From: Clostridium sp.
Lineage (GTDB): Bacteria > Bacillota > Clostridia > Acetivibrionales > Acetivibrionaceae
DNA: 64,000 nucleotides
Direction of reading: 5' to 3'
Assembly: GCA_012798835.1 (NCBI GenBank)
Contig: JAAZML010000113.1
Coordinates: forward strand, 1-64,000
The notes under the pieces were generated by a model. It saw only the letters and a program-made list of their open reading frames with translations, was not told where the DNA came from and searched no databases. Both the position numbers and the translations under genes were made by a program. This document shows, one piece after another, positions 1,257-11,145 of this stretch; the first letter of the stretch is position 1, and each line of letters starts with the position of its first letter.

Positions 1257-1318
1257 TAATTGCGTTTTTGTAGACCGACTCAAATTATGAGGTTGCGGGT
1301 TATGGGGTGAAAAGTAAA

Positions 1319-3601
1319 ATGTATTATATAAACGATCTAAAAAAACAGGTGGCATCCATAATATTATCGATAGCTGCGGTAAGTTGGATTATTATTTCTC
1401 TTACCAGTGTCCTTTCGATAATGACCTTTTTAGCAACAGCCTTTATATCCCTTTTTATTTTTATAGTTTATAATTACATACGAAGGAAAGACAGAATAAA
1501 AGTTTTGTTGTTTATGGTATTCTCCATACTGTTCTTTATAATTTCGAATTTATTATCAACGCTTATACCTCAAATACCCCCCATGTTTTTTGTATCTGTT
1601 TATGGTTTTGCATCGGTGTTTTATTATTTCACAGTTATACGCTACCGGATCGCCACAATTTTTATCACTTCATTTATACCTTTTTTAATTTATTCAGCAC
1701 GCTCGGATAAAACAATAACCCTGCCTTTTGCGATGTTTATAATATTCTTTTTTGTTATGTATTGTAGGCGGGACAGGGAGAAAAAGGTTGTGGCGTACCA
1801 ACAGGAAGAGGTTGGGAAGTTGTGGTTTTATTTGCCGATGTTATTCATAGTTGTATTTACATTTTTCGTTTCATGGATTTTTCCAAAGCCCAATATTATA
1901 CCCGGTGTTACATATCTAAACACTGTGGTTAATGAAGATTTTCAGGGGGGAGGTGGCGGGGAACAAAATGATATTTCAGACATAGTGAGCGGTATTTTCA
2001 ATCCTGTAAACTTGAAGAAAGAAAGTATAGTAAGCTCTATAAGTGCTCCTTTGAGTAAGAGGGTGATTTTTAAGGCTAAAGCCGACGAACCCCTTTATTT
2101 TAAAACTAGAAGCTGGGATATGTATGAGAATAATGCATGGAAAATGGGAAATGTACAACTAGAAAGATTCGAAGCTATTGAAAACATTTATAGAAACCAG
2201 GTAAAATACGATAGGCTTGTTTCGCTCATTGAAAAAGCGCACGGAGCTGACATTAAACTTCCCCTATCTCCTATGTATGATGATTTATGGAGCTACCCCT
2301 CTATTCCCGGAGTTGAAAAGGTAGTCATAATAGAAAACACAAACCAAATTTTCACAAGTACGATTCCAGTGCCCAACGGAATAATATCCGCCGAGTTCCC
2401 TATCAACGATGGACGAAAAGAATTTTTAAATGGATATGGCATGTGTAAAATACAAAGGGGTCCCCATATGTATTCATGGAGGGAATACCATATTGGTTAT
2501 GTATCTAGGAAGATGGTGTGGAATTCTAGAGAATATGCGCTTATTAAGCTTCTTAATAAACAATCAGCTCAAGTACTATTGGATCCTTCTTTATACAGGG
2601 AAAGTAAGCGTGGTGATGGGGGTTCTATCATCGGCTATGATGATTTCATCCTATTAAATGTTTCGGCGGCGGAGTTAAACCATGTGTATGACAATTACCT
2701 ACAGTTACCTGAAAACACCTCCAACAGGGTTTATGCTTTAGCTGAAGATATAACAAAAAACAAGGAAAGTGATTATGAAAAAGCTAAGGCGATAGAGCGG
2801 TATTTCCATGTTTCGGGTTTTGTGTACACCCTAGATCCACGAAAGACACCAAGGGGGGAGGAGGCCGTTGAACATTTTATTTTCGAAACGAAAGAAGGGT
2901 TCTGTGTCCATTATGCCTCTGCTATGGCAATATTAGCAAGGGCGTGCGGTCTGCCCTCTAGGTATTCGGAAGGCTATGTGGCAGATGAAATTGACGAGGA
3001 GAGTGGTATGTATATTATCCGAGAGAAAGATGCCCACGCTTACCCTGAAATATATATCGCAGGGTATGGTTGGATGATTTTTGAGCCTACGGTAGCCACT
3101 CTAAAAGAAAGCCAGTGGGATATTATGATGAAAAATATATATTCAGCGGTAGGTTATACTGTAAAGTATGTAGATTATATCACTGAAAGGACTCCTTTTT
3201 GGATTAGGCTTATATTTTTACCGTTTACTGTTTTTACTATTATATTTCTAATCTGGTTACTGCGAAGATTGTATATTAAGGCGTGGAAAAGAAGGATGAT
3301 GGCTGTAGATACTAGCTTGGCTATGGATAAAATTTTTTATAGGATAGAAAGGCATTTAAGTTCTGTAGGTTTTAAAAGGAACAAGGGGGAGACTCTGCTC
3401 CAATATGATAAAAGAATTTTTTCCGAAACTGGGCTAGAACTTTCAAAGCTTTTACAGGTAGTTAGTAAAGCAAAATATGCAGGAATAAAACCCTTGGGTA
3501 AAAATATAAAGGATGCAATCGTATCCTATCAGGATATTGTTTTTCATGTGAGAGGCGGGTTTTCTAAATCTAATTTTATAAGGCGTATATGGCTAGTTTA
3601 A
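1319..3601 (+). CDS. transglutaminase-like membrane protein (TgpA type)
   Basis: This is a large protein of about 760 residues. Several membrane helices fill the first ~185 residues, an extracytoplasmic region follows, the transglutaminase-like core lies near residues 525-590, and there is one further helix and a cytoplasmic tail. The core shows the catalytic Cys (EGFCVHYASAMAILAR) and His (DAHAYPEIY, then GWMIFEPT), so the papain-like triad appears intact. It lies 62 bases after the DUF58 gene, the usual pairing. The ORF track opens at a GTG (1307); I prefer ATG 1319 because the ggggtga ahead of it is a well-placed ribosome site. Substrate unknown; protease or peptide crosslinking roles are inference. 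Confidence 0.85.
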   Translation: MYYINDLKKQVASIILSIAAVSWIIISLTSVLSIMTFLATAFISLFIFIVYNYIRRKDRIKVLLFMVFSILFFIISNLLSTLIPQIPPMFFVSVYGFASVFYYFTVIRYRIATIFITSFIPFLIYSARSDKTITLPFAMFIIFFFVMYCRRDREKKVVAYQQEEVGKLWFYLPMLFIVVFTFFVSWIFPKPNIIPGVTYLNTVVNEDFQGGGGGEQNDISDIVSGIFNPVNLKKESIVSSISAPLSKRVIFKAKADEPLYFKTRSWDMYENNAWKMGNVQLERFEAIENIYRNQVKYDRLVSLIEKAHGADIKLPLSPMYDDLWSYPSIPGVEKVVIIENTNQIFTSTIPVPNGIISAEFPINDGRKEFLNGYGMCKIQRGPHMYSWREYHIGYVSRKMVWNSREYALIKLLNKQSAQVLLDPSLYRESKRGDGGSIIGYDDFILLNVSAAELNHVYDNYLQLPENTSNRVYALAEDITKNKESDYEKAKAIERYFHVSGFVYTLDPRKTPRGEEAVEHFIFETKEGFCVHYASAMAILARACGLPSRYSEGYVADEIDEESGMYIIREKDAHAYPEIYIAGYGWMIFEPTVATLKESQWDIMMKNIYSAVGYTVKYVDYITERTPFWIRLIFLPFTVFTIIFLIWLLRRLYIKAWKRRMMAVDTSLAMDKIFYRIERHLSSVGFKRNKGETLLQYDKRIFSETGLELSKLLQVVSKAKYAGIKPLGKNIKDAIVSYQDIVFHVRGGFSKSNFIRRIWLV

Positions 3602-3659
3602 GATTTGTCCAGCAAAATTGCATGTATATGATATTATCTTTTTTTATGTAGATAAAAAA

Positions 3660-3710
3660 ATCGAACAATAACCATCTATTTATATGGGTTATTATTCGAT
3701 ATCCTATTTT
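3660..3710 (+). terminator. rho-independent terminator after the transglutaminase gene
   Basis: An inverted repeat of about 16 bp (atcgaacaataaccat pairing with atgggttattattcgat, with small imperfections) is followed by a T-rich run. It closes the DUF58-transglutaminase unit. Confidence 0.6.
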
Positions 3711-3770
3711 TTCGTTCTTTAATTTTTCTACTTACCCCTTAGTGTATTCAAATATCATTTGAATGGTGTT

Positions 3771-3834
3771 GCTGTTGCGAAACGGGCTTGGTCTCCGTAT
3801 TATCTCTGTTTGGCTGGAAACCCCATTTCGCAGT
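3771..3834. other. imperfect inverted repeat, possible structured RNA
   Basis: The arms tgcgaaacggg and ccccatttcgca pair at 10 of 11 positions and enclose about 40 bases. It abuts the first unit of the 71-bp repeat array. No T tail follows directly, so it does not look like a plain terminator. Function unknown. Confidence 0.3.
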
Positions 3835-3839
3835 TTTTT

Positions 3840-4265
3840 AAATACTATCTCCCCGTTTTCGAGCTTCTCCCCAAAGCTCGGCTCTTATAAAAGTGTGGTT
3901 CTCTCTTTTTAAATATTATCTCCCCGTTTTCGAGCCTCTCCCCAAAGCTCGGCTCTTATAAAAGTGTGATTTTCTCTTTTTAAATACTATCTCCCCGTTT
4001 TCGAGCCTCTCCCCAAAGCTCGGCTCTTATAAAAGTGTGGTTCTCTCTTTTTAAATACTATCTCCCCGTTTTCGAGCCTCTCCCCAAAGCTCGGCTCTTA
4101 TAAAAGTATGGTTCTCTCTTTTTAAATATTATCTCCCCGTTTTCGAGCCTCTCCCCAAAGCTCGGCTCTTATAAAAGTGTGATTTTCTCTTTTTAAATAT
4201 TATCTCCCCGTTTTCAAGTCTCTCCCCCAAAGTTTAACTTTTTTAAAAACGTGATTATTTTTTAA
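3840..4265. repeat. tandem array of a 71-bp unit, six copies
   Basis: Units begin at 3840, 3911, 3982, 4053, 4124 and 4195, an exact 71-bp period. The first five are nearly identical; the sixth is decayed. Each unit is pyrimidine-rich on the plus strand and carries two overlapping inverted repeats (cgagc/gctcg and gagcc/ggctc) that would form mutually exclusive hairpins. Units 2 and 5 share the same variant bases (aatatt and gtgtgatttt), suggesting block duplication. The period is not a multiple of three and there are stops in the frames I read, so it is not coding. There are no unique spacers, so it is not CRISPR. Confidence 0.95.
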
Positions 4266-4606
4266 TAATTCCCCTAAAATATAATTTTCCTGATTTGATT
4301 CTAGCGAGTAGTAGGATTAAATTTGTGAATATTTCTGAGGTCTATTCGGTAGAAACCCATCGGAAACATTATAAGAAATAAAAAAGTAATTGTAAGAAAT
4401 GTAGCTACTTTATCTTAGGAAAGTTACTTTCCCTAATTCAATTATACAACAGATGGTATACAAAAATAAAGGGAAGGATCTTAACATTTTACTGTAAAAT
4501 ATTAAGACGAAGAAAGGGAAATACTAAAAGAGAATAAATAATATACTTTTATAGTATGAAGAAAACCTATCCACGGGGATGCCCAAATAAGGAGGTGATA
4601 ACCATA

Positions 4607-4801
4607 ATGGATGCTGAAAGGATTAGGCAGATAATAGAATCAAGTTCTGTTATAGAGGTGTTTCATGAGGGAAAACCAGTATGGATTGAGGGCATACTGA
4701 ACAATGAACAGGTGGAGATTTCGGATATGCTAACGCAAAAAAGGAGTGAGGTTCCAGCATACAGCCTAATTGAAAAGGGAACAACCGAAACGATGCATTG
4801 A
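4607..4801 (+). CDS. sspH: H-type small acid-soluble spore protein
   Basis: This 64-residue protein begins MDAERIRQIIESSSVIEVFHEG and contains GKPVWIEGI, matching the SspH family of minor spore-core proteins made in the forespore. The ORF track starts 17 codons earlier, but a strong ggaggtga lies nine bases before ATG 4607, and that start gives the usual family length. It stands alone between the repeat array and the pncA-like gene. The name rests on recognised sequence similarity. Sigma-G dependence is known for the family and was not verified here. Confidence 0.85.
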   Translation: MDAERIRQIIESSSVIEVFHEGKPVWIEGILNNEQVEISDMLTQKRSEVPAYSLIEKGTTETMH

Positions 4802-10999: not shown

Positions 11000-11145
11000 A
11001 TAGCGTTACCTAGCATAAAGCGCTTAATCCATTGAACGGGGGAACCAATGTTTAGGGGTGAATCTTAGCTATTTCGCTAAGTAGGGTCAGTCTCTTTCGA
11101 TCCAAATCCGTCAGCTAACTCCGTAAGCGTTGATAGAGAAGTGTG
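11000..11145 (+). ncRNA. c-di-AMP riboswitch (ydaO/yuaA motif)
   Basis: The conserved blocks appear in the right order: cgcttaatcc, acgggggaaccaatg, aggggtgaatc, a variable hairpin (cttagc-tatttc-gctaag), gtagggt, and finally ccgtcagctaactccgtaag. These are diagnostic of the ydaO/yuaA class, which binds cyclic di-AMP and usually shuts off expression when c-di-AMP is high. A terminator hairpin lies about 40 bases further on, as expected for transcriptional control. The downstream genes are dapB, ablA and ablB. Exact P1 boundaries are approximate. Confidence 0.9.

Follow-up and report, generated by a model that had tools for sequence, protein, structure and literature searches.

The window, i.e., the whole 64-kb stretch analyzed here, is the initial 64 kb of contig C39, which has 66,991 bp and belongs to a draft genome of 171 contigs. 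Within it, a tandem array occupies a gap between a gene for a transglutaminase-core protein and the sspH gene encoding the small acid-soluble spore protein H, beyond which genes for an isochorismatase and then a nicotinate phosphoribosyltransferase follow (Table 1). The gap had been described as noncoding from the sequence alone, and we found no credible open reading frame running through the array. The gene order around the gap is the same in five genomes of the same genus. In the relatives, the gap additionally holds a plus-strand gene whose product has about 130 residues and contains CxxC pairs, and four of the five also have a minus-strand gene for a 34-residue peptide; both genes are missing from the gap in the window.

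Table 1. Features of the gap and its neighboring genes in the window.
Feature	Position	Strand	Basis or remark
Transglutaminase-core gene	1307..3601	+	Neighbor used for synteny
Terminator-like long hairpin, then TTTTTTT	3655..3701	-	Predicted structure (+ strand z -3.05)
Decayed peptide-gene start	3703..3742	-	Alignment; ribosome-binding site and start codon eroded
Leader hairpin TGCGAAATGGGGTTTCC...GGAGACCAAGCCCGTTTCGCA	3776..3832	-	Conserved in the nearest relatives G001 and G003
Array unit 1	3840..3910	-	Two GGGGAGA motifs
Array unit 2	3911..3981	-	Same sequence as unit 5
Array unit 3	3982..4052	-	
Array unit 4	4053..4123	-	
Array unit 5	4124..4194	-	Same sequence as unit 2
Array unit 6	4195..4256	-	Diverged (79%); two GGGGAG motifs kept
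Lone TTAGGGGAA motif	4268..4276	-	Upstream of the array; like single motifs in relatives
Promoter-like TTGTATAATTG	4439..4449	-	Alignment; conserved at the leader start in relatives
sspH (small acid-soluble spore protein H)	4607..4801	+	Divergent neighbor, conserved in Acetivibrio

The array at 3840-4256 consists of five 71-bp units that are 94-100% alike and one unit of 79% identity. TRF reported a period of 71 bp with 5.6 copies and 95% matches over 3835-4232. With one unit as the query against the 2.29-Mb genome, blastn returned exactly six matches, all within the window array: five units matched with 96-100% identity, and the sixth, which ends at 4256, with 79% over 61 bases. Exact-pattern scans with the unit core found no match in collections of genome contigs and of viral contigs. 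The array is thus a genuine tandem repeat, even though its copy number is uncertain because it is longer than a short read and the genome is a 171-contig draft. The variants that the sequence-only reading saw as shared by units 2 and 5 are real, as these two units are identical over 71/71 positions, with 3-4 positions distinguishing them from units 1, 3, and 4. The array has the near-identical tandem units that define minisatellites (VNTRs), and growth by tandem duplication, including a block event, is supported.

The asymmetry of the strands, also pointed out earlier, is complete for one motif. The minus strand of the array contains GGGGAG 12 times and CTCCCC never, each unit, including the diverged unit 6, carrying two copies. 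The two competing hairpins proposed for each unit can be drawn. However, the predicted folding of one unit did not surpass that of its dinucleotide shuffles, with z -0.76 and -0.96 for the two strands, and the motif does not keep its pairing state from one genome to the next, which leaves the competing hairpins unsupported as a feature. The search of relatives suggested with the same reading revealed no 71-bp array in 60 of them; the array gave only chance-level blastn matches there, except for one 25-bp match that corresponds to the conserved leader hairpin. Comparison with the relatives favors TTTnGGGGAG on the minus strand as the repeated unit of meaning, rather than the 71-mer or its hairpins. 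Out of the three readings offered from the sequence alone (a minisatellite, a repeated protein-binding site, or a tandem source of small RNAs), the minisatellite is supported as the mode of growth, and the repeated site is favored in a form refined by the comparative evidence.

The hairpin at 3776-3832 lies outside the array and is the sole strongly folding element beside it. It resides between the array and the peptide site in the window genome (G000) as well as in G001 and G003. Its internal stem can form G-U pairs only on the minus strand, and the folding z-scores of the minus versus the plus strand are -4.93 versus -0.52 in the window genome and -2.44 versus -1.07 in G001, while the hairpin of G003 folds well on both strands. 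Further downstream on the minus strand, the predicted hairpin and T run at 3655-3701 would probably mark the end of a minus-strand transcript. With the peptide gene absent and the terminator-like hairpin next in line, a minus-strand transcript would likely comprise the promoter, the array, the hairpin, and the terminator without any peptide. No convincing -35 element was seen with the promoter-like sequence. At the gathering score, Rfam gave no match in the window gap or the five syntenic loci, and only eukaryotic and plastid families appeared below the threshold in the gap. Elsewhere in the window, a c-di-AMP riboswitch (ydaO/yuaA leader) was detected at 11011-11143 (+) with 90.8 bits, well over its gathering score.

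We compared the locus among 14 genomes of the family, namely the window genome and 13 relatives, with pattern searches for the genome-wide motif statistics. The same-genus relatives include A. straminisolvens and A. mesophilus, and the sister genus group includes A. alkalicellulosi and Herbivorax sp. The consensus TTTnGGGGAG, with T favored at positions -4 to -2, is present in 13 of the 14 genomes at 2-10 copies each and in a single orientation; G007 alone has no motif leader. Across the 13 leaders, GGGGAG occurs 59 times and CTCCCC not once, and every leader exceeds its own dinucleotide shuffles (P from 0 of 400 to 0.0075). GGGGAG motifs occur in all five syntenic Acetivibrio gaps, four of which have an intact peptide and two of which have the hairpin. 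When the 14 genomes were searched for three GGGGAG at short distances, we obtained 12 places with the motif and none with the reversed pattern. Eleven of these are leaders of the peptide gene (G003, G010, G011) or precede a decayed one (G006, G009, G013); the remaining place is in a gene-dense stretch of the window genome and reads as coding. A looser pattern added G012, where the peptide is decayed, and recovered G001, G002, G005, and G008 at the known loci, while the leader of G004 was found through synteny. Order-wide, outside the family, motif clusters were no commoner than the reversed-pattern control.

The motif is located between a promoter-like TATAAT and the gene for the 34-residue peptide, and motif and peptide stay together in two different gene contexts, beside sspH in the genome groups g1 and g3 and beside clpS in most of g2. 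In both contexts, alignment revealed a conserved TATAAT-like TTGTATAATTA that precedes the motif cluster by about 120-280 nt, from which we infer that the motifs are part of a transcript. Apart from single outlying motifs, their spacing varies from 18 to 92 nt with a fixed orientation, a pattern more in keeping with an RNA signal than with a phased DNA operator. The probability that the motif is unpaired was not consistently higher than in flank-shuffled controls, being clearly higher in the window genome only, and in a three-species group of pseudogenes GGGGAG was not clearly better conserved than its surroundings. Separately from the peptide locus, G012 carries a second tight GGGGAG cluster (GGGGAGTAATTAGGGGAGTAAATTTGGGGAG; G012:C298, L116 1501-1531), which precedes an ATPase-like gene (MAKGKIRHMFPGGNTSLGFF...) by about 270 nt and is perhaps another target of a motif-binding factor. 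We also observed two palindromes, AGTAAGATCTTACT and TTTGTGTACGTACACAAA, flanking the GGGGAG zone in the Acetivibrio relatives (L040-L044; L048 at ~1180 and L051 at ~1310), the latter varying in G001; they are probably operators of dimeric regulators.

The minus-strand 34-residue reading frame is found in the gap of four of the five same-genus relatives and is preceded by a good ribosome-binding site, which reads MKNLKAKLMVAFMVGAMVVCQLISVAEASWYRFR in G001. It follows the pattern MKNLKAKL...(S/E)WY(R/K)(F/W)R, with K2, N3, K5, L8, G15, Q21, A28, W30, Y31, and R34 conserved in the alignment. It occurs once per genome in at most 7 of the 14 family genomes and was absent from 44 further genomes of the order. 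The dN/dS values within the genus (0.13/0.92 for G001/G003 and 0.17/0.76 for G004/G005, with the G011 peptide left out) indicate that the peptide is under purifying selection there. Its anatomy suggests an exported pre-peptide in which a small-x-Ala site is followed by a six-residue mature end. The copy in G011 has no clear start codon, and decay of this gene may have begun. In the window genome and five relatives, the peptide has decayed and the motifs are kept; no intact peptide was found in the window genome. G006, G013, and G012 (g2; L071, L072/L100, L112) have a decayed peptide gene in common; its start and frame are lost, but one can still recognize the ASWYRF codons at its end. Neither Pfam nor NCBIfam gave a match above the cut-off, PHROGs yielded nothing convincing, and no relatives of the peptide were found in viral contigs. 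Its end SWYRFR does not occur in the open-access literature searched.

Taken together, we propose, at about even probability, that the array is a lineage-specific tandem expansion within a conserved minus-strand regulatory leader of a small-peptide gene. The ancestral leader would start at a TATAAT-type promoter near sspH and continue with several TTTnGGGGAG motifs; in the nearest species, the long hairpin would come next, and the leader would end at the ribosome-binding site of the gene for the exported 34-residue peptide. The motifs might serve as RNA sites for one trans-acting factor, with an RNA-binding protein or a small RNA with a CUCCCC seed as the candidates, which would control translation of the peptide or stability of the transcript. 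The Shine-Dalgarno sequence of the peptide gene is GGGAGG, and GGGGAGG in one species, and so resembles the motif closely enough that one factor could bind both. Having lost the peptide, the window genome would retain the multiplied sites either as a relic or as sites still soaking up the factor. A related possibility, which we regard as quite unlikely, is that the GGGGAG-rich minus-strand RNA acts on its own as a noncoding decoy with many sites that outlived repeated loss of the peptide and had its sites multiplied here.

The same array could also have arisen neutrally, the loss of the peptide having freed the leader and slippage having multiplied a 71-bp stretch with two ancestral motifs, without any present function. 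The decayed peptide in the window genome, the lack of any such 71-bp array in the relatives, and the chance-level folding of the unit agree with this, and slippage typically leaves near-identical units, block duplications, and a diverged unit at the end. Yet all 12 of the 12 array motifs are intact despite the 21% divergence of the sixth unit, and G003 has ten motifs with an intact peptide, so a high motif number is not linked to peptide loss. We consider a purely neutral minisatellite rather unlikely, though it is the strongest of the rival explanations. If the GGGGAG direct repeats instead bound a transcription factor as a DNA operator, with a promoter nearer to the peptide gene, the direct repeats would be in the usual operator form, and the conserved palindromes flanking the motif zone in Acetivibrio do suggest that DNA-binding regulators are probably active at that gap. 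Against such an operator, which we judge improbable, stand the spacing of the motifs without an obvious helical phase, the TATAAT conserved upstream of them in both gene contexts, and the palindromes themselves, which the window lacks and which did not turn up in the clpS context.

Small RNAs with C-rich motifs and rut sites are C-rich and G-poor with repeated C-rich motifs. The plus strand of the array, C-rich, G-poor, and with CUCCCC repeated, resembles them, and it might give rise to a C-rich antisense or small RNA whose CUCCCC seeds target ribosome-binding sites, or to a Rho-utilization site behind the transglutaminase operon. However, in the clpS context the motif accompanies the peptide gene rather than the transglutaminase gene, and two of the three genomes have a leader hairpin that favors the minus strand; a function of the plus strand is very unlikely. 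A CsrB-like sponge or a CsrA-controlled leader, in which the GGA of GGGGAG would be the CsrA site, came to mind because of the GGA in predicted loops. CsrA is encoded in 21 of 21 genomes checked, and the multiple GGA-containing sites are partly predicted to be unpaired in the window genome. We set this explanation aside as very improbable, since the flagellin leaders beside csrA in relatives use an ordinary CAAGGA, placed in a hairpin in the g2 genomes, whereas the leader motif here is TTTnGGGGAG, which lacks the ACA part of the consensus and whose loop display is not conserved. The published CsrA consensus is RUACARGGAUGU, with ACA and GGA invariant (PMC7652899). As for the flagellin genes adjoining csrA (L095, L096, L098), clear CsrA-type hairpins (e.g., ATCAATCAAGGACGGTTGAT) are found upstream of them, with a second CAAGGA at the ribosome-binding site.

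Leaders in which regulatory sites recur ahead of a small peptide are known as a kind, and both the motif and the peptide appear to be undescribed within the open-access literature. If the proposed leader is correct, a family of cellulose-degrading clostridia would possess a small exported peptide and, controlling it, a multi-site leader, neither of them described before; the family would thereby gain candidates for a peptide signal and for a post-transcriptional regulator. The leader motif is easily recognized and testable, and it is found in 13 of 14 genomes, culturable species included. A seemingly meaningless tandem repeat of a single draft genome could thereby be explained through the same gap in its relatives.

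Among known systems, CsrA-controlled leaders and CsrB sponges similarly gather, within a single transcript, several short motifs that are G-rich and contain GGA and that precede or replace a coding region, but their core is ACANGGA instead of TTTnGGGGAG, and conserved display in hairpin loops is not found here. The decoy considered above would share the principle with CsrB, with another motif and a different putative regulator, either a protein or a small RNA. The peptide is reminiscent of the RRNPP pre-peptides (Phr, PapR, NprX) in its basic start, hydrophobic core, small-x-Ala cleavage-like site, and conserved six-residue end, an anatomy that seems to fit all intact members on inspection of the alignment. 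The TPR receptor cognate to an RRNPP pre-peptide is usually encoded next to it; here, we recognized no obvious receptor gene on inspection of the neighboring reading frames at the listed peptide loci, and only one member matched the NprX family (NprX_fam), with 13.1 bits below the NCBIfam cut-off of 33. AgrD pre-peptides begin with an MKNLK-type basic and hydrophobic N-terminus, as does this peptide, which in contrast has neither the conserved cysteine for a thiolactone nor an acidic tail, ends with WYRFR, and gave no match to AgrD in NCBIfam. The array itself shares exact-period, near-identical tandem units and block duplication with intergenic minisatellites, from which it differs in that the motif within its unit is also conserved, at the corresponding place, in species without the array.
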